Shown: one piece after another, positions 28,926 through 62,700 of the stretch
Position numbering within the stretch: position 1 is the stretch's first letter
How the letters are laid out: each line of letters starts with the position of its first letter
Translations under genes and position numbers: made by a program
Assembly (NCBI GenBank): GCA_963971285.1
Contig: OZ020253.1
Span: 20,410,528 to 20,474,527, forward strand
Reading direction: 5' to 3'
DNA: 64,000 nucleotides
Origin: Astropecten irregularis
Lineage: Eukaryota; Echinodermata; Asteroidea; Paxillosida; Astropectinidae
The notes under the pieces: model-generated
Database searches by the model: none
What the model saw: only the letters and a program-made list of their open reading frames with translations
Told to the model about the DNA's origin: nothing

Positions 28926-29460
28926 ACTAATATTGTAAAATTTAAAACAAATGGCTGAACTTTAAACTGAGTTTAGGAGACGAATGGACTGTGGGGATGA
29001 ATGATTTGAGGAATTGTAGTAGTGTTCTAGCCTAAATGGATTTCCACCGACGCCCACTGCTTAATTTCATGTAGTGTTCATTCAATGGATGGGAGGAATC
29101 AGTTGACAATTCAGATGCTTTTTGGAGCACTTTTCCTTCACAAATTCTGTCCAGATCTATGACTTTCTGTATGCCTTTTCTCCCGCTTGCTTTGTCATCT
29201 TTTCTTTCTTTTCATGAAAATAAAAAAAATATTTGCTTAGTGTCCTTTTGCCAGTCGATATTTATGCACAGTGCAGACATACTGATGTTTCAATGACGGG
29301 TGCGTAAACAATGTCATTGTTCTATCGTCATGGGAGCACTTCAGTTCCTGGAGAAAATAATAATATTTAAAAAAAATAAAAGCTTATTAAATAACCATAA
29401 GGAGAAATGACTGGATAATTTTTTTGTTAAGTCAATGAAAAGTGAATGAAGACAAAATAT

Positions 29461-30513
29461 TGTAACGAAATTGCGCTCGGACGGGCGCCCTCATGGTTAA
29501 GTTTAGTGTGCAATTATTTACTAGCGCTAGCTAGAGTGAAAGTGTTGTTTGTCCTGCGTCCGTAGTGTACGTGTGCGCGGGATTTGCGCGCGCGATGCGC
29601 GGCACACAAGATGTGATTGGTGCACTTGAATCCGGGCTAAGCTTTATAAGCCCAGTTTTTGGAGCGCACGACCTCTCTTTTTGGGCTGCGCTCCTGGCGG
29701 CCAGTGTGTGTTCGTTTGGACAAGCCGTCGTATCGCCTCTGGCACATATTCAGCCGATGGCTGGTGTGCCCTGGAGAGGCGATCGCATAGGAGCAGCACT
29801 TAAGGAGCAGCACGGGCGTTGACGCACAGAGGTGTCCGCCCACCAGGGAAGCGCATGGGAGCGGCTATAAGAGGCGTTGACGCACAGAGGCGTCCGCCCA
29901 CATAGCGCGAGCGCTAGGAGCTGCGTAAGAGGCGTTGACGCAAGAGGCGACCGCCCACAGAGGAAGCGCACACAGGGAGCGGCTATCAGAGGCGTTGACG
30001 CACGGAGGCGACCGCCCACATAGCCCGAGCGCTGAACCAGCCATACTAGGAGGCGATTGCTCGCGTAGCTGGCGCTCGAGGGAACATCGCGGTTTTATAG
30101 AGGCGCTTAAGGAAGCGCCAATTAAGGCATTATAACGGAAGGCTATTGGAGCCGAGTAGTTTAATTGCAAGAGAGAGGCGATTATTGTTAATTGTCATCT
30201 GAGTTATGCATACAGAGTTCCACCCACCACGCTGTTCGGTGGCGGGTCATTAAACCAGCAGAATTACATTTCATTGACCCCCCTTTTACATTATTCCCGT
30301 GTCATTAATTGTACACCCCTCCCCGTTGTCTGTCCCGTTCGTCCAGTACCCTGGTCGTGGATCCTGTCCGGCGGTGTGTCGGGTATTTTTGTAGGCGGTA
30401 TATTTCAGCCAAACGAACCCCCGTCTCCGGCCGCATCCTTGCGTGGGTTGCACCGGGGTTTCGGTCTCGTGCGGCGCGCCCTTCGTCTCACGTCGGGCGT
30501 GATTCCCGTCACA
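29461..30513 (+). repeat. 5' LTR
   Basis: It starts TGTAACGAAATTGCGC and ends TTCCCGTCACA. A TATA-like TTTATAAG near 29641 sits inside a partial GGGCT/AGCCC inverted repeat and is a candidate promoter. The middle carries four tandem units of about 58 bp. Short open frames inside it are identical in the other LTR and are not convincing genes. Confidence 0.93.
29817..30050 (+). repeat. Four tandem ~58-bp units within the 5' LTR
   Basis: Each unit starts CGTTGACGCA, continues with GAGGCG(T/A)CCGCCCAC and ends near an AGCGC/GGAGC-rich segment. Unit starts are at 29817, 29875, 29933 and 29993, giving periods of 58, 58 and 60. The same array recurs in the 3' LTR at 33065-33298. Repeated GC-rich units in the U3 region often act as enhancers; that role is inference here. 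Confidence 0.85.
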
Positions 30514-30515
30514 AA

Positions 30516-30533
30516 TGGTGGCAGCGGTGGGAT
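30516..30533 (+). other. Putative primer binding site
   Basis: TGGTGGCAGCGGTGGGAT begins 2 bp after the 5' LTR end. The leading TGG would pair with the CCA end of a tRNA. I could not assign the tRNA by eye. Confidence 0.6.
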
Positions 30534-30586
30534 TACTTTTGCTTGATACTGCCGCTGGATAGATTCACGGTCGGGTCTGGAAAGGA

Positions 30587-30790
30587 ATGGGACTTACGCT
30601 GGGAGTTCTTTTCGGGCTTTTAGTTGCGTCCCTGGCCATTTTGGGGATTATCTTATGTGTACAACTTAAACAATCGGGGAAAGTGCAAGCTCTCTGGCGG
30701 GCAGCATCAGAGACGAGGAGGAAACTCCAAAGGATAAATCAGTTAGCAAACAGGACACACGTAGCAGTGATTCTGCAAGGCTTCGAGTAG
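30587..30790 (+). CDS. Retrotransposon ORF a: small single-pass membrane protein
   Basis: A 67-residue open frame from an ATG shortly after the primer binding site. Residues 3-25 form one strongly hydrophobic segment (LTLGVLFGLLVAS then LAILGIILCV), followed by a basic, soluble tail rich in Arg, Lys and Gln. It ends at a TAG, 32 bp before the next ATG. I recognise no family. A membrane segment at the start of a retrotransposon interior is unusual; it could be a captured host fragment, a vestigial gag N-terminus or chance. Confidence 0.35.
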   Translation: MGLTLGVLFGLLVASLAILGIILCVQLKQSGKVQALWRAASETRRKLQRINQLANRTHVAVILQGFE

Positions 30791-30822
30791 AGGCAACTAT
30801 CACCAGAGGAGCAGACGGAACC

Positions 30823-31362
30823 ATGGCAAATAACGACCTTGTGAGGGGAGCTGGAGGCGACATGGTAGCCTCCGCACACGAGGAGCTGGTGCATCTGCGC
30901 GATGAGGTGGATAGCCTAAGGATCGAGGTGCAACATAAGGATGACCTCCTGCAGGATCTGTATGAGGAGAACGAGTGCCAGGAGGCACGCATTCGCTACC
31001 TGCAAAAGCGGATGGCCGATTTGGAGGAGCTCTGGCAGTCGACTCCTTGGTCAGGAGACGCCCGGGTAATAAATCCCAGGCAGGCGGCGAGCACGACTCG
31101 CCGCCGTCGACAGGAGGCTACTCCCGGAAATCTGGCCACTCCGGTGAAGGATTGGACTTGGGAGGCTCAACACAGGGAAGAGGCGACCATGGCGGGGATG
31201 GGTTTCCCATTCGAAAACCCCATCAAACCCTGGGTATCATGGCCGAATGTCCCTGAGGAGACCAGGACTGACCTGGAGGCTGCCGGAGCGAAATCGCCGC
31301 CTCCTGCATGCGTGATGCCAAGGGAGTCACGGACCCAGTGCCTCAGCAGTTGGGAGAGGTAG
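30823..31362 (+). CDS. Retrotransposon ORF b: gag-like coiled-coil protein
   Basis: A 179-residue frame from an ATG in the context ACCATGG. Residues about 18-66 have a heptad pattern of a coiled coil (HEELVHLRDEVDSLRIEV onward), followed by a basic patch with four arginines and a Trp-containing Pro-rich tail. An N-terminal coiled coil that could drive self-assembly fits a degenerate gag-like protein. No zinc knuckle or protease motif is visible. The frame closes about 90 bp before the first of two stem-loops. Confidence 0.45.
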   Translation: MANNDLVRGAGGDMVASAHEELVHLRDEVDSLRIEVQHKDDLLQDLYEENECQEARIRYLQKRMADLEELWQSTPWSGDARVINPRQAASTTRRRRQEATPGNLATPVKDWTWEAQHREEATMAGMGFPFENPIKPWVSWPNVPEETRTDLEAAGAKSPPPACVMPRESRTQCLSSWER

Positions 31363-31453
31363 ACACCGATCCCGAGATACAGGCCATCCCGGGGACGGGC
31401 TATTACCCAACCGAGGAGTCAGACCAAAACGGCCGGGAGAGTGTGAAAACACA

Positions 31454-31482
31454 TGGTGCAGCCTTAGAAGGAGGCTGCACCA
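31454..31482 (+). other. Stem-loop A of a covarying pair
   Basis: Ten perfect base pairs (TGGTGCAGCC with GGCTGCACCA) close a 9-base loop, TTAGAAGGA. The inner six pairs and the loop are identical to those of stem-loop B; the outer four pairs differ yet still pair. Confidence 0.8.
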
Positions 31483-31566
31483 CATCACCCGGCCGGAAGA
31501 AGGTTGGACTGCCTGCAGGCACCACAGGGAAGACGGACGGACTGGCCGTGGGACAAATGGAACACA

Positions 31567-31595
31567 CGATGCAGCCTTAGAAGGAGGCTGCATCG
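31567..31595 (+). other. Stem-loop B of a covarying pair
   Basis: Ten perfect base pairs (CGATGCAGCC with GGCTGCATCG) close the same TTAGAAGGA loop as stem-loop A, 113 bp downstream of it. The outer pairs differ from A with compensatory changes on both arms. Confidence 0.8.
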
Positions 31596-31714
31596 AATCG
31601 CACGGCCAGGAAAGATTTGAACGGAGCAGAGGTACCTCTACAAAAGAGGACAATACACGCGCTGGAGATACACGAAGGAACCAGCAGGAGCCGAGGAACA
31701 TACACGCCCGGAAG

Positions 31715-32095
31715 GTGGTTGTCCAGCCGCTGGAGGATGCCCAAACCTGGGGAGAGGCCATCCAGTTCCTCCAACAGGAGAGAGCCGCCCGGACCCCAGA
31801 GGCAACCGCCCCAGCCGTCGGAATTGCATTGACCGAACCCCCTCCGATGCCTGCCGTTCACCCCCCTCAGACCTCGGCGAGCGTACCCCCTCCCCCGTTG
31901 TCCCCTGCCCTACCGATCGATGACCAACTCCGGGCCGATTTGGAGCTGTCCAGCTACGACGACGAACCTGTGGAGCCGCCCAAGGAAGAACCGTCCGGCC
32001 TCACGCAAGGTGATAACCAGGAGAGGCCAGCCGAGTTGTCCCTCTCCCCGGTTTCCCTTGCCCTGCTGGAGGGGGAGCCCCAACCAGCCACTTAG
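31715..32095 (+). CDS. Retrotransposon ORF c: proline-rich acidic open frame
   Basis: A frame open from about 31715 to the stop at 32093-32095, rich in Pro, Glu and Ser (for example EPPPMPAVHPP and VPPPPLSPALP). No ATG opens it at this position, so it may be reached by frameshift from an upstream frame, be a decayed 3' half of the gag-like gene, or be non-coding GC-rich sequence. No domain recognised. Confidence 0.25.
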   Translation: MVVQPLEDAQTWGEAIQFLQQERAARTPEATAPAVGIALTEPPPMPAVHPPQTSASVPPPPLSPALPIDDQLRADLELSSYDDEPVEPPKEEPSGLTQGDNQERPAELSLSPVSLALLEGEPQPAT

Positions 32096-32690
32096 AGGGA
32101 ACCGTCGCCGGAACCAGAGAAGAGTGAACCGGTGGTGACAGCGTCCATTCTGGCCCATGGAGCTTGCCCCCCTTCCTCCGCGACCGAGTTGTCCGGGTGA
32201 TGGAACGCAAGAAGACCACTACTTACGAGCAGGGGACCATACTGTGTCATTGCCGAGGAAGAACGAGTTTACGATGTGGAGCTTCGGAACTGAACAGAAC
32301 TTTATTATTCCTTGTTTCAACTGTTGCCGCGGAAGGCCTGCCGAACTTGTAATGAAAGTTGCTGATTTGTTCTTAAATGTTTAAGGACTCCAGAATTTTG
32401 GAAGTGTGATTATCTTGTCAAGGTGGTTTAAAAATGGGGGCGAGCTGGACAATGCCTTTAGCATATTCCATCTCTCGCCTAGGAGGACTTGCCGAATTGT
32501 TGATCAAAGTTGTAAAACAATTGTGGTGAATGTTCAACCTGTTAAGAGTTAAAGGAGTTTGTGAACATCAAGTTGCAATAGTTTAAGGGGCGTGTTAAGA
32601 AACGCCTCAGTTTTTGAAAAGAGGTTTTGGCCCTCGCTTATTCCTTTTGTTTATTTATTGATTTGTATGCTGATTCTTACCGGGACGGTC

Positions 32691-32705
32691 AAGCAAAGAA
32701 GGAGG
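32691..32705 (+). other. Putative polypurine tract
   Basis: AAGCAAAGAAGGAGG, purine apart from one C, lies 3 bp before the 3' LTR, where plus-strand priming occurs in LTR elements. Confidence 0.55.
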
Positions 32706-32708
32706 CTG

Positions 32709-33761
32709 TGTAACGAAATTGCGCTCGGACGGGCGCCCTCATGGTTAAGTTTAGTGTGCAATTATTTACTAGCGCTAGCTAGAGTGAAAGTGTTGTTTGT
32801 CCTGCGTCCGTAGTGTACGTGTGCGCGGGATTTGCGCGCGCGATGCGCGGCACACAAGATGTGATTGGTGCACTTGAATCCGGGCTAAGCTTTATAAGCC
32901 CAGTTTTTGGAGCGCACGACCTCTCTTTTTGGGCTGCGCTCCTGGCGGCCAGTGTGTGTTCGTTTGGACAAGCCGTCGTATCGCCTCTGGCACATATTCA
33001 GCCGATGGCTGGTGTGCCCTGGAGAGGCGATCGCATAGGAGCAGCACTTAAGGAGCAGCACGGGCGTTGACGCACAGAGGTGTCCGCCCACCAGGGAAGC
33101 GCATGGGAGCGGCTATAAGAGGCGTTGACGCACAGAGGCGTCCGCCCACATAGCGCGAGCGCTAGGAGCTGCGTAAGAGGCGTTGACGCAAGAGGCGACC
33201 GCCCACAGAGGAAGCGCACACAGGGAGCGGCTATCAGAGGCGTTGACGCACGGAGGCGACCGCCCACATAGCCCGAGCGCTGAACCAGCCATACTAGGAG
33301 GCGATTGCTCGCGTAGCTGGCGCTCGAGGGAACATCGCGGTTTTATAGAGGCGCTTAAGGAAGCGCCAATTAAGGCATTATAACGGAAGGCTATTGGAGC
33401 CGAGTAGTTTAATTGCAAGAGAGAGGCGATTATTGTTAATTGTCATCTGAGTTATGCATACAGAGTTCCACCCACCACGCTGTTCGGTGGCGGGTCATTA
33501 AACCAGCAGAATTACATTTCATTGACCCCCCTTTTACATTATTCCCGTGTCATTAATTGTACACCCTTTCCCGTTGTCTGTCCCGTTCGTCCAGTACCCT
33601 GGTCGTGGATCCTGTCCGGCGGTGTGTCGGGTATTTTTGTAGGCGGTATATTTCAGCCAAACGAACCCCCGTCTCCGGCCGCATCCTTGCGTGGGTTGCA
33701 CCGGGGTTTCGGTCTCGTGCGGCGCGCCCTTCGTCTCACGTCGGGCGTGATTCCCGTCACA
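32709..33761 (+). repeat. 3' LTR
   Basis: Same length as the 5' LTR and offset by exactly 3,248 bp. The only differences noticed are two C-to-T changes in ACACCCTTTCCC, where the 5' copy reads ACACCCCTCCCC. It carries the same four-unit tandem array (33065-33298). It is followed by ATATATTGA, consistent with a 4-5 bp target duplication. Confidence 0.93.
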
Positions 33762-34339
33762 ATATATTGACTTCAAATCCCGCTCAAGTTAATTTTCAAG
33801 TTGATTACTGACGTTCAGTTGCCAGTCCTGTCGCATTCCCCCATCATGACTGAATACATGTCTGAATTTTTACATTCTCAACTACATCTGAATTCTAATT
33901 TCTTTCAGGACTTGCAGTTAATATTTTGTAATTATGACAACTTATTGATATCACAACCTGAAGACTAAAAAAGAAAAGCTTCTTAAAATGTACAAAATTC
34001 CTGCCGTCTGATGTCTTTTCTTTATAGGGTTAATTTAATTAGCAAACAAAATCATAGACAAATTGATCAAAACATGAGAATAATTCGACAGATTAAAGTT
34101 AAAATCACAATTTCCTTTACAGTCGCCAAACCTAAGATGCTAAGGGACTCTCAGGTAGGGGTAGGGGTAACGGTTGATTTTTGTACACCAAGGTAAAAAG
34201 AAGTTTAGTCAATTTTTCTTTGTTCACTTTTCAATGACTTAAAATAACTCAGTCAGTTTCCCTTGTGGTTATTTCACGAATATAAAAAGAAGTTTGTTAT
34301 AAAAGTGCAGTTTACCGGACGGTTTACCCACAAAAACTG

Positions 34340-34560
34340 GACACAGCGCCCCCATTGTCAGCAACAAACCTTTTTTTGCACGGGCAAGAAACTGTCCCAC
34401 AATGCATTTGTCCACTTCCGGCGTAGCGTGGATCGGGAGGGCGTTTGACCAAATTTATCGTGAATTTGATGCCACAAAGTCTGGACTGTCTCTGCCCCTC
34501 TCGATTCAGATTCCACTCCAGGAAGCATTTCATGGTGGCAACTGTAATCTGAAGATGTAA
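34340..34560 (+). promoter_or_regulatory. Candidate GIPC promoter and untranslated first exon
   Basis: An ETS-type CCACTTCCGG at 34412-34421, next to a CCCACAATGCA word, resembles TATA-less housekeeping promoters. Downstream, GAAGAT|GTAAGTAAG near 34556 offers a splice donor. The GIPC coding exon has its own upstream acceptor (35561-35564), so an untranslated first exon must exist; this is the best candidate. The transcription start is not determinable from sequence alone. Confidence 0.45.
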
Positions 34561-42400: not shown

Positions 42401-44324
42401 TGTGAATTTTATTTGTATAAGAATGATGAACAAGATTAGTGATTGATTAAACGTTTTGATTGAATGAAATGGAACACCTCTTTGGATTTACGTGGCCTTC
42501 ACTGACATAAGCCTCATTCTGTAAGAGCAGGTCACATATTGGGAGTTGAGATATAAACTGAGCTTTCTATTAAATATTTCTATTTATGAATTATGGTCTT
42601 GTATTATAATCACCAACTGATTCTACGATTTCTTATGGCGAGTCTAATTATGCACCTGTACTAAGCTTATCTCATGGTTAGAGAAATGTATTTGTATAAA
42701 TGAGAAATATATTCAGATCTGTAAAATTGGATATTTTAGTAATTTAATGAAAACATGTGCTACCAGTAATAAGAGTTTGGCTTTGAAGTTCAGGTGTGGT
42801 CATTATTAATAAGTATAACCTTCCATTTGATATTGGGTTCAGACCTGACTCTGTTTATTTGACCCAAGGTTGTGATACTTGATGCTATTCGATTAGCTTA
42901 CGTAACCCTAGGTAAAGTCATATGATCACAGATGTAATGCTGATGTGCCTGTATGTATCTGTCCAATTTGTAAGTTAATAACCATTGCTTATTCATCTGG
43001 CTTGGAGATGTTTGTCCGCAAGGTGACTTGGGGTCACTTTATCTGGTCAAATAAAATTTATTTATACCTGGGCTCTATTCTTAAAATTCTAAGGTTGATC
43101 TTAACTTGCACATCAAACTTAACTGACGCTAAAGAAGAAACATAATATGATGCTGTTGACATCTCATCTTTTAACATTCTTCATCAAGCTTCATTAAAAT
43201 TGAGCTCATGTAGTATTTTCAAGGCGGTATATTTTTCTTAAAACCTGAGAAACTAGCCCATTTGACTTAGATCACAGTGAATGCCATTTAAAAAACATTT
43301 GTCATTTTGATCCAGATATTATCCCTCAAATTTCTAATAAAATCAAGCAAAGAGTCTAATCATCATTTTCTACAAATATTTATTTACCACACATCAGAAA
43401 AAGTACAGAATTAATACATTACAAAATAAGTAAAATTTCAATAATATTACAGCTCAACACTCCTGACTCTCAAAGGAATGTCAAACAGCAGAATCAAATA
43501 ATAGTTTGTTAAAAAGCTCTCCTTCAAATCACTTTTTGGCAAAGTACGCAACCAGAATCATTGACTTGTGTCAGTGCTGATTAATAATGACATTATTCTA
43601 AGAAAGATTTGAGGCTTTGCATGGTAACAATTGGTATGTGGATCAGTTTGCGGAAGCACCATTAAAGAAACTTTCGTACTGTAGCACTTCTAATTCCTTC
43701 GCATTTCTCGTAAGGTCTCAACATTTCGACTAGCCTGCTCTAGTCATCATCAGGAGACCGACTAGAGCAGGCTAGTCGAAACGTTGAGACCTTACGAGAA
43801 GTGCAAACGAAATACATAGTGTGAATGTGTGAAAGTATGAACGATTCTTACATGGTGTTTCTGCAAACCGATCCACATAATGACATTATTCTCTGCTCAA
43901 GATCGGTTGTACTTTTTGAAGTTTGCAAATTCCAAATCACTATGAAGTTCATACAGATTACCCTGTGTACGTTTATGTACACAGAGAGCAGCTATTGATG
44001 ACATTACTGAAGATAACTCAGATGACTAACTCGGATTTCGGCTATGAAAGGATGACCAACCAACCAACAGCAAGAAGTCCTATACATGTCTTTTAAAAAT
44101 CATTGTTAACGCATGAACAAACAATGACCTAAAGTTATTGGCCATTTTCATAGCAACAATACTTTTATGTGATGCATCATGTGTCATAGTGATTTGACTT
44201 GCTTGTGTCACATGCATCAAGCATGTTGGATAAAAAACAAAGCAATGGTCAATGCCCAGATGTCATGACCATGAACTGAGGCCTTTAGGGGGGGGGGGGG
44301 AGGGGGTTGGAAGGGGAAGAGAAA
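39475..44324. other. GIPC/GTF2F1 3' untranslated and intergenic region
   Basis: No further coding exon is visible between the GIPC stop and the GTF2F1 stop. The region is AT-rich and has several possible poly(A) signals. AATAAA at 43336-43341 (plus) and at 43379-43384 (minus) face each other and may end the two convergent transcripts. A foldback element (43598-43885) and a G-homopolymer near 44288-44306 lie within the presumed GTF2F1 3' side. Confidence 0.5.
43598..43885. repeat. Foldback element with 41-bp-arm hairpin core
   Basis: The outer termini TATGTGGATCAGTTTGCGG and CTGCAAACCGATCCACATA are inverted. Nested inside is a hairpin with arms 43705-43745 and 43760-43800 (41 bp each, one G-T mismatch) and a 14-base loop. 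The left arm begins TTCTCGTAAGGTCTCAAC. A shortened relative is at 5811-5930. No open frame. It is a non-autonomous foldback transposon or a MITE. Confidence 0.75.
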
Positions 44325-59700: not shown

Positions 59701-62700
59701 AGCTACAAGTAGAACACAAAGCCAGTTGCCATGTTTAATTTGAAATCTTGACATAAGGAAAGGTATAGTCTCCTTGGATTTCATAATTTAACTGAATTCT
59801 GTTGTCACATTGTCATTTTGAAAGCCTTGATACATGTCAGGCCCAGTTCCCCTAAATGCTATAGAGTGTAACATCAATGATGGGAAAGTTTTTAATCTTT
59901 GGTTGTCCTGTTTTTTAAAGCAGATAATAACTCAGATAATATGATATTTTTCTCAGAGTTATTGATGCAATGACAGATTGCATTTTTATGTCAATTGTTA
60001 GTTTGTATTCGATATCCAAATTGAAAAATTGATATCCTTTTGTAGAAAGTTTAAAAGCTAAATTTATGTTTCTAATTCTTCTTGAACTTTGCAATCTCTT
60101 CTTTAATCAGGTTTGGCTGCCACCTGTGACCGCATCTACAGTAGCCTTATCATGCCATCCAACACCACAACCCAAAGTGCCTCTTCCACCACACCAACCA
60201 CTACCACTTCAACACCTGCACTCACTGACATCAAACACCCTCTTGTACAACCAAAGACCAGTGTCCACCCTCTGGAGGGTCTGAAGGTCAAGGATTATAA
60301 GGTCACTCAGGAGGGGCTTGTGATTCCAGGCCTGGCATGGAATGCTGACCACACCTACAGCATGTCTGCTAAGACACTTCATAAACTTGGTATCCTGACA
60401 AGAGTCAACAGTGAACCACTGGAACCAACGGAATCCACTTCTCTCTCAAAGTCCATCAAGGAATTAACTGAAACCATGGACATCGATTCCAGCATCAAAA
60501 TAGAAATGGTCATTACTGATGAATCGGAACATATTGCTGTAGGCAACTCGGGAAAGAGGAGCACTGTTTCTGCAGCTGCTCATCCCGATAAGGAAGAAAA
60601 TGTGGAAGATATAAAAAGTGAACCTTATGAAGATGATGTGTCTCTCCTTGAAGGTGGCATGTCTAGGTTTGACATCAAGCAAGAACTTGATGCTTCAGAT
60701 TTGAGTGATACAGATACCAGAGATCAAGTAATGGACATTACATCAGACATGCAAGACATTGTAGTTCCCCAAACTCCACTGGGGCAGAACCTGGACATCT
60801 ATTCCCCCAATACACTTGCTGGAGAAGAAGTGACCGGACCATTTCATAATGGAGAGTTTGAAAGTTGTCTGACCTCTGAGGAGGACCAGACTATCTCAGG
60901 AAGCCTGCTTGAGTTGAGGTCATCTACATCACCCTCCTCCGGTCCTGATGTCTCACTAGAGATGCAGTGTGAAACAGTTGAATCCAACCATGAAAAGGAA
61001 CATCTAGAAGAGGAAGAGGGACAAGAGGAATCAGACGCACCACAAGGTGAAGACACACTACAAGGAAGAATAGACGTGGCTACAAGGGAACTTACACTGA
61101 AGCTGGATGAGATCAATGATTGGGAGAAACAAGCCATCCCTGAATTCTTTCAAGGTGGACCCACCAAGACCCAGGACCGTTATCTCAAGATTAGGAATTA
61201 CATCTATGAACACTGGTCAGTTAATACCTGTCAGAAATCTATCACCATTTTGGTCATTTTGGTAATGCTTGATATGCTGACTAATAGTTGTTTTTTTCCA
61301 TTGTATGATATGGCTCATTCATACATTACTTCCCCTCTCTTTGTTCAGGTTACAAACTAAGCCCAATTATCTGAATAAGGCCTCTGTGCGGCAAGGGCTC
61401 CGGAGCTGTGGGGATGTCAACTCCATTGGCCGTATTCATCAAATACTGGAGACTTTTGGTGCTATCAACTTTGGAATCGGTAAGCAGTTTGCCTTCTTAC
61501 CATGAAATACAGGCATGGCATTGTTGTATAGATGCTTTGGTAGATTTGGTCTTGTGTTTTGAACATTAATCAAAGTGTTATTTTGTTGGTTTCTTATGTG
61601 ATGTGTTGAGAGTAATGTGTAATATGCATGAGCAAGGTTAGAATACCATTAGTTAACCAGTTAACAGGATTTTACCATGTGTGTGCTCACTGCTCGGACA
61701 CCTTGTGCAAGTATTCTTGTTGATTCTCTAGTTACCATTGGTTGGCATATAAATGTCAGAAATTGATAACCAGTCCATATCCTGTGTGTGACTTCTAAAT
61801 AGTCAACCACACTAACCCAAACCTGTTGCCTAGTTTGAATAGTAAAATTATTCCTACCATTGTATATAATGCCAAGGACACGACTGCACTTTACTTAATA
61901 AGTACTGTTCCCATCTTGATGTGCCATGTTGTTATCTTTTATTTGAATGTAGACAACCCATACAAGACAACCATAGACACCCGTGCTAATACAATGAAGC
62001 GACGTGTTACTTTAAAGCCTGACAAGCTGACAGCGTGTCGGGAGTCCAGGGTAAGACATCTCTCTGTCTTCTTAAAGTTTAACTTTTGATGAGAACCATG
62101 TGTCTGCATAGATTGATGTACTGGTACTGGACAGATAGTTGTAATCATACCCTGTGCACTCCAGCTACTGCTGTTTCCAGACAGACACAGCAGGCCTAAT
62201 TTTTTTTATACATCAGCTTCTCTGTGAGCAGAGTATTGCTGATGCATACTATTGCTGTTCTGTTCTTATGGTAGGCATATATCATAGATTTACGTGGAAT
62301 TTTAGCTTCTGCACATTCACAGTCATGCTCACATGTTCACTTTAAACTATCTGAGCTGTACGCTTTATTCTAAATCTTAAGTATGTCATTCTGTTAATGA
62401 TTGTGCCTATTGTTTACAATTAATTCCACTATATGAAGTTCTTGGGTGTGATACAAACATTCTTACTCTGTTTGTTTGTTTGTTTGTTTGTATGTTTCAG
62501 AGGAGAGTTTGTAAGATGAAGAATGTTGAGTCCAAATCAGACGCATTGCAGAAACCAGAGGAGGTCCCATCTCCTAGGAAGAGTAGTAGGTGAGTCATGA
62601 TAAGATACAAACCTCTGCATCTCCACTTTGTAGGAGTTAGTACTGTTGTACGTATTTACCTACCTTTTAGAACTGTTGTACGTATTTACCTACCTCCCAG

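Follow-up and report, generated by a model that had tools for sequence, protein, structure and literature searches.

The closest described systems include the direct repeats of Rous sarcoma virus (RSV), two hairpin-forming copies that act in the export of unspliced RNA and have been implicated in packaging (PMC9143442). The locus described here lies in a 64-kb window of the Astropecten irregularis genome, the window being the whole stretch of DNA that was analysed. It too has two copies of a structured direct repeat, but whereas the RSV copies flank src, these start 113 nt apart in the tail of pol and have a putative function. Structured RNA in pol is likewise the point of resemblance to the MPMV CTE and to a gammaretroviral CTE-like stem-loop, which works with NXF1, in cis on unspliced RNA (PMC4174252). 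The hairpins here, in contrast, are without an Rfam match at gathering score (a scan of 29000-34500 gave only mir-3130, at 21.5-27.7 bits against 95), and NXF1 is only a putative partner. The Cer1 element of C. elegans makes a protein, CERV, from a spliced mRNA; it is needed for export of the genomic RNA and its Cys loop is essential (PMC10309623). The present element is also Gypsy-related with an extra protein from a spliced mRNA, although here the splicing is predicted only, and that protein (ORF3) has a C2H2 doublet and is set beside CERV by description only. In the central polypurine tract of lentiviruses and Ty1 a purine tract is repeated inside pol (PMC1635064), whereas here there are two copies, each in a hairpin with a perfect 11-bp stem, and priming is putative. 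Finally, the MMTV packaging signal has a stem-loop that presents unpaired purines and is bound by Gag (PMC8096270); its purine loop is in a stem-loop with the dimerisation initiation site, while the loops described here are at the end of pol.

The two hairpins lie within a 4.3-kb non-autonomous LTR retrotransposon at 29461-33761 (Table 1). With its TG...CA LTRs, short target duplication, primer-binding site and polypurine tract it is a Ty3/Gypsy-type LTR retrotransposon, a placement at the level of Gypsy and not of a clade within it by tree; the tRNA matched by the primer-binding site is presumably tRNA-Leu. The window copy consists of the start of gag, a deletion, the tail of pol, a second deletion whose two sides overlap at about 31681-31696, and the C-terminal part of ORF3. 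Its ORF1, for which there was no Pfam match, is 96.3% identical over 510 bp to a longer element (locus L011), where the frame is gag-pol. A search of the genome (475.7 Mb in 168 contigs) identified three sister copies with the same short structure, on C1, C11 and C20 (17.8 Mb), and one longer relative at C20:6.54 Mb (overlapping loci L009 and L011) with an open gag-pol frame and ORF3. The frames of these two overlapping loci are open and in register, and in the L009 part, scanned for domains in two pieces, the pol frame encodes protease, RT, RNase H and integrase, in that order. All five insertions have 4-bp target duplications (GTAC, ATAT, ATAC and GTAT for the four besides the window). The two LTRs of the longer copy are identical over 1237 aligned sites, and those of the short copies differ at 2 of 1053 sites in the window, 1 of 1172 on C1, 1 of 1112 on C11 (5 gap columns) and 1 of 1063 at C20:17.8 Mb (8 gap columns). 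This near identity indicates that the insertions are young. The four short copies lie at different sites, have common internal deletions and no pol apart from its tail, as non-autonomous deletion derivatives do, and were presumably mobilised in trans.

Table 1. Features of the element and its two hairpin units, in window coordinates
Feature	Position	Strand	Details
Target-site duplication ATAT	left 29457..29460, right 33762-33765	.	flanks the window element
5' LTR	29461..30513	+	TGTAAC...CACA, 1053 bp; LTR pair differs at 2/1053 sites
Primer-binding site	30516..30535	+	complementary to tRNA 3' end, read from sequence
ORF1, N-terminal gag-pol remnant	30823..31362	+	179 aa; truncated at deletion junction ~31322-31329
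pol C-terminal tail remnant	31322..31696	+	holds both hairpins; 93.9% identity to longer copy
Hairpin unit H1	31429..31496	+	inner stem 31454-31465/31471-31482, loop 31466-31470, from folding
H1 outer helix	31430-31437/31488-31495		8 bp
H1 GA/UC pairs	31439-31440/31485-31486		
Copy in H1 of the 12 nt before the 3' LTR	31466..31477	+	loop and 3' arm; exact
Hairpin unit H2	31542..31609	+	inner stem 31567-31578/31584-31595, loop 31579-31583, from folding
H2 outer helix	31542-31550/31601-31609		9 bp
H2 GA/UC pairs	31552-31553/31598-31599		
Copy in H2 of the same 12 nt	31579..31590	+	exact
ORF3 remnant	31658..32290	+	query aa 101-311, zinc fingers deleted; one TGA and one TAG inside
Polypurine tract	32695..32708	+	AAAGAAGGAGG plus CTG; directly adjoins 3' LTR
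3' LTR	32709..33761	+	1053 bp

In the longer copy the counterpart of 31322..31696 is part of the pol frame, downstream of the integrase C-terminal domain (Integrase_p58_C), and both hairpins lie inside that frame, where they encode the repeated peptides THGAALEGGCTTSPGR and THDAALEGGCIASHGQ. They were thus inherited from the pol coding tail of a longer relative and not invented for capture, and the proposal in the earlier note that they let a non-autonomous element capture another element's machinery is conjectural.

That note had described two stem-loops 113 nt apart, and these are present at 31454-31482 and 31567-31595, with the same start-to-start distance. The ten perfect pairs that it gave to each are paired, but the stems are longer, with 12 pairs each (11 Watson-Crick and one U.G) and a loop of AGAAG. 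Of the outer four pairs, all said to differ with compensation, only two do so, T-A becoming C-G and G-C becoming A-T, and the remaining pairs are common to both hairpins; the changes are indeed compensated. Absent from that description was the outer helix, 8 bp in H1 and 9 bp in H2, which holds two more double changes. Between its inner and outer helices each unit has an internal loop of 13 nt on the 5' side against 2 nt on the 3' side, and each also has two GA/UC pairs and a purine-purine mismatch. The ninth outer pair of H1, 31429/31496, is open in the window (A31429, G31496) and closed in the longer copy (C, G), and in the window copy it is a one-sided difference between H1 and H2.

When perfect stems of 10 bp or more were sought around loops of 3-15 nt, four were counted in the element, representing the two hairpins at two loop sizes, as compared with a mean of 0.05 and a maximum of 2 in 100 first-order simulations. 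The 72-nt units of the window are predicted to fold as bipartite hairpins with z-scores of -8.0 and -9.8, with 0 of 200 shuffles as stable, and the two folded together give -9.2. They rank first and second in stability among the 75-nt windows of the element taken in 5-nt steps, the third (-38.3 kcal/mol) being at 31051. Dimerisation, one of the functions suggested previously, is unlikely to occur through a palindromic kissing loop, since the loop (AGAAG/TTAGAAGGA) is purine-rich and not self-complementary; an extended-duplex dimer of the hairpins is possible. Elsewhere in the window, the longest perfect stem found is a 22-bp perfect inverted repeat with a 14-nt loop at 43724-43781, and an open frame with a SWIRM domain is present at 60113-61360.

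Selection on the RNA structure of the hairpins, which the earlier note proposed, gains firmer support than that note could give from comparison of H1 and H2, which are paralogous repeats in the pol coding tail whose differences keep pairing even where amino acids change. In the longer copy they differ at 8 of 46 stem sites and at 16 of 37 unpaired sites. The eight are exactly four doubly changed pairs among the 23 (G-C/A-U, U-A/C-G, G-C/U-A and C-G/U-A), with no one-sided change. Random placement would pair all eight changes with a probability of 3.4e-5, and every pair was standard in 10 of 200000 simulations. Because paired letters changed together, the RNA shape itself appears to matter. Between the window and the longer copy, 22 substitutions over 31322-31696 (one single-base gap between the hairpins being excluded) include one among the 92 stem sites, none among the 10 loop sites and 21 among 273 others, a sparing of stem and loop (1/102 against 21/273) with a one-sided hypergeometric P of 0.007 (Fisher, 0.012); the sole stem substitution adds a pair in the longer copy.

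The covariation analysis is based on two paralogous units and two decayed relatives and not on many independent lineages. In the five distinct units that were aligned, pairing holds in 94.8% of 115 cells, falling to 33.0-50.4% when the partners are slid. Three of the shuffle controls on these units favour structure, being reached by 3, 0 and 0 of 500 shuffles (the zeros are for cells with a double change and for the covariation score). Two do not, namely the number of doubly changed pairs (69/500) and further pair types (464/500). When the decayed relative L044 is added, 5 of 23 pairs are doubly changed, 89.6% of 135 cells are paired, and the shuffle results are 0, 29, 0, 493 and 0 of 500, the 29 and 493 again being for doubly changed pairs and further pair types respectively. 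The invariant core could partly reflect gene conversion between the units.

The same comparisons bear on whether the selected feature is a protein repeat, with a duplicated pol-tail peptide (THGAALEGGC / THDAALEGGC) maintained and the palindrome arising incidentally from the codons used. In the longer copy the repeats keep the reading frame and align codon by codon, and L053 and L080, of a related lineage, have 66-nt tandem repeats coding a repeated peptide at the same place in the pol tail. We consider this reading very improbable, however, given that the complementarity reaches wobble positions and the duplicated outer helix, and that the compensating changes alter amino acids. In the longer copy all four of those on the 3' side are non-synonymous (T to A, T to I, P to H, R to Q), as is one of the four on the 5' side (G to D), and protein constraint therefore fails to account for the pairing. 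Moreover, the window copy keeps its stems even though its reading frame is shifted between the hairpins. Third codon positions differ between H1 and H2 in 0 of 7 core codons as against 10 of 24 outside, a difference that is not significant alone (Fisher, 0.066).

Paired changes might also arise by mutation without selection, if repair or template switching in an imperfect palindrome uses one arm as the template for its partner. Arm-to-arm correction yields exactly paired changes, and the decayed relatives L010, L012 and L044 have deletions that end in or near the hairpins, which suggests that the palindromes may be unstable. We nevertheless regard such an origin as unlikely, as the paired changes occur in two helices split by the 13-nt versus 2-nt internal loop, the mismatch at alignment columns 13/62 went from A-A to G-G and not to a complement, and at columns 29/57 L012 shows a U.G, which is midway between U-A and C-G.

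Pairing had also been expected to persist across copies of the element, and this holds for the five insertions with target duplications, all of which keep both hairpins, but not for the other relatives, none of the five having both. The exact core occurs 11 times in the genome, as two per insertion in those five and one in L012; three further matches carry 3 mismatches, and a backward control also gave 3. L012, one of two such relatives on C9, has lost H1, its outer helix has decayed, and its H2-like unit breaks 5 of 23 pairs and folds with a z-score of only -1.4 (20 of 200 shuffles as stable). L010 (C29) is broken in the H1 loop, L044 (C9) has H1 with loop letters lost and no H2 that we could see, the hairpin region is absent from L035 (C23), and no core was found in the loci examined among the fragments at C20:9.118 Mb. 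All five look decayed, and they provide little information on active copies; equally, the four short copies have the same deletions, so their retention of the hairpins counts as one event. A covariance model of the unit, searched over 22 sources, matched its four source units (window and L009), L012 (also in the model), an L010 half-unit (E 0.01) and L044, an old decayed relative (E 0.07), and gave weak matches at E 1.2-1.7, four of which are the antisense of these same stems.

The twin hairpin is not general to ORF3-bearing elements, being found in none of 12 other such loci, where there is no perfect 10-bp stem and only one locus with 8 bp; the ORF3 homologues there do without it. Only L041 among the 12 has a 75-nt window whose stability none of 40 simulations reached. 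The 66-nt repeats of L053 and L080 were considered as a parallel and rejected, as by eye they vary without clear compensation; the most stable window of L053 was matched by 5 of 40 simulations.

The loop and 3' arm of each hairpin also match exactly the last 12 nt of the polypurine tract, immediately before the 3' LTR. The sequence AGAAGGAGGCTG occurs three times in the 64-kb window (31466, 31579 and 32697-32708) and not on the other strand, and it is found at the corresponding three places in the longer copy. The 3' polypurine tract thus has an internal copy in pol, with 12 of 12 nt, twice. This exact match makes an internal polypurine tract a serious rival, in which the hairpins would form, at the end of pol, a second and duplicated origin for plus-strand DNA beside the tract expected to prime it at the 3' LTR, much as central polypurine tracts do in lentiviruses and Ty1, with the structure controlling or protecting the tract or, alternatively, pairing with the 3' tract. 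The 5' arms of H1 and H2 can indeed pair with that tract (-13.6 and -15.0 kcal/mol), and recurrence of any 12-mer from the 25 nt before the LTR is rare by chance: when the interior was simulated 3000 times at second order, it was seen in 18 runs (59 for 11-mers and 265 for 10-mers). We nonetheless think this reading unlikely. A tract needs no 5' complementary arm or outer helix, yet those covary, and the full 11-nt purine run before the LTR is not copied in the hairpins, which have 9 of the 11 nt. In addition, the match was noticed after the fact. At L053 the sequence before the putative LTR has no such purine tract and no 10-mer in common with its pol tail, and 9 of 14 other loci have some 10- or 11-mer, although no 12-mer, that is present both in the 700 nt preceding ORF3 and in the downstream part. 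The central polypurine tract of Ty1, moreover, is reportedly not essential for transposition.

ORF3 of the longer copy is an open frame of 311 aa with two C2H2 motifs; with Pfam zf-C2H2 it scores 19.7 bits, below the cut-off of 25.2, which is exceeded by three of seven other proteins scanned (L037, L043 and L040). A search of the genome with ORF3 gave at least 105 matches (127 of 767 candidates were scored), some of which could belong to zinc-finger genes of the host. Gypsy-type elements with a downstream ORF that has two C2H2 motifs form a broad group (loci L035-L059). The C-terminal end of ORF3 is similar by eye in L009, L037 and L043, and acceptor-like sites are present just upstream in several loci. 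At L040:811-3381 (C14, ~22.818-22.820 Mb) a single open frame (857 aa in the locus as extracted, 935 aa in the genome search) has three ORF3-like C2H2 doublets, and could be either a host gene that arose from ORF3 or a member of the host family from which ORF3 came. L051, L056 and L059, with 97.7-98.8% identity over 3.3 kb, have an aspartic protease frame that continues straight into ORF3 as a single 648-aa frame, with neither RT nor integrase in the middle. This is the reverse of the arrangement in the window element, where the pol tail is retained and the fingers are missing.

ORF3 is probably expressed by splicing, to judge from a 3' splice site-like sequence in the longer copy that ends 14 nt before the ORF3 ATG and 291 and 177 nt downstream of the two outer helices; a similar one is present in the diverged relative L012. 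A scan of the leader and ORF1 found no splice donor of consensus form except one weak site inside ORF1. SR-type proteins prefer purine-rich sequence, and the purine-rich loops and their position upstream of the acceptor-like site would be compatible with a role in which such proteins bind the loops and the hairpins tune splicing of the genomic RNA. We find this unlikely, as the short copies retain the hairpins although both the acceptor and the fingers have been lost from them, and the splicing is itself only predicted.

We give about even chances to the hairpins being a duplicated cis-acting RNA element on the Gypsy genomic RNA, in the sense orientation, for export or packaging; any function is read from their structure and position. 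Each hairpin would present an invariant purine loop (AGAAG, within TTAGAAGGA) and an asymmetric bulge to an RNA-binding protein, and two copies would double the binding site and so provide avidity. Lying upstream of the likely ORF3 splice acceptor, the hairpins would be present on unspliced genomic RNA and absent from the spliced ORF3 mRNA, and would therefore mark the genomic RNA for nuclear export, packaging or both. Candidate partners are an NXF1-type host factor, Gag and the ORF3 protein that the element itself encodes. The short copies would have to carry all of their signals in cis, and may have inherited the hairpin element in this capacity. It is also conceivable, but improbable, that both activities are combined, in that a hairpin-caged, duplicated copy of the polypurine tract marks unspliced RNA through its loop and also provides twin central polypurine tracts, the same 12 nt being selected for both.

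Within the limited literature searched, no paper turned up on a C2H2 ORF3 in Gypsy elements, nor any that linked the RNA transport element to IAP, NXF1 and a stem-loop. To our knowledge, the cis-acting RNA signals of Gypsy elements have been little studied in comparison with those of retroviruses and the yeast Ty elements. A compact doubled hairpin whose changes are compensated, passed on to a short mobile derivative, offers a defined sequence with which export, packaging and plus-strand priming could be separated, and the accompanying group of elements with a zinc-finger ORF3, apparently spliced, invites comparison with Rev-like and CERV-like export systems.
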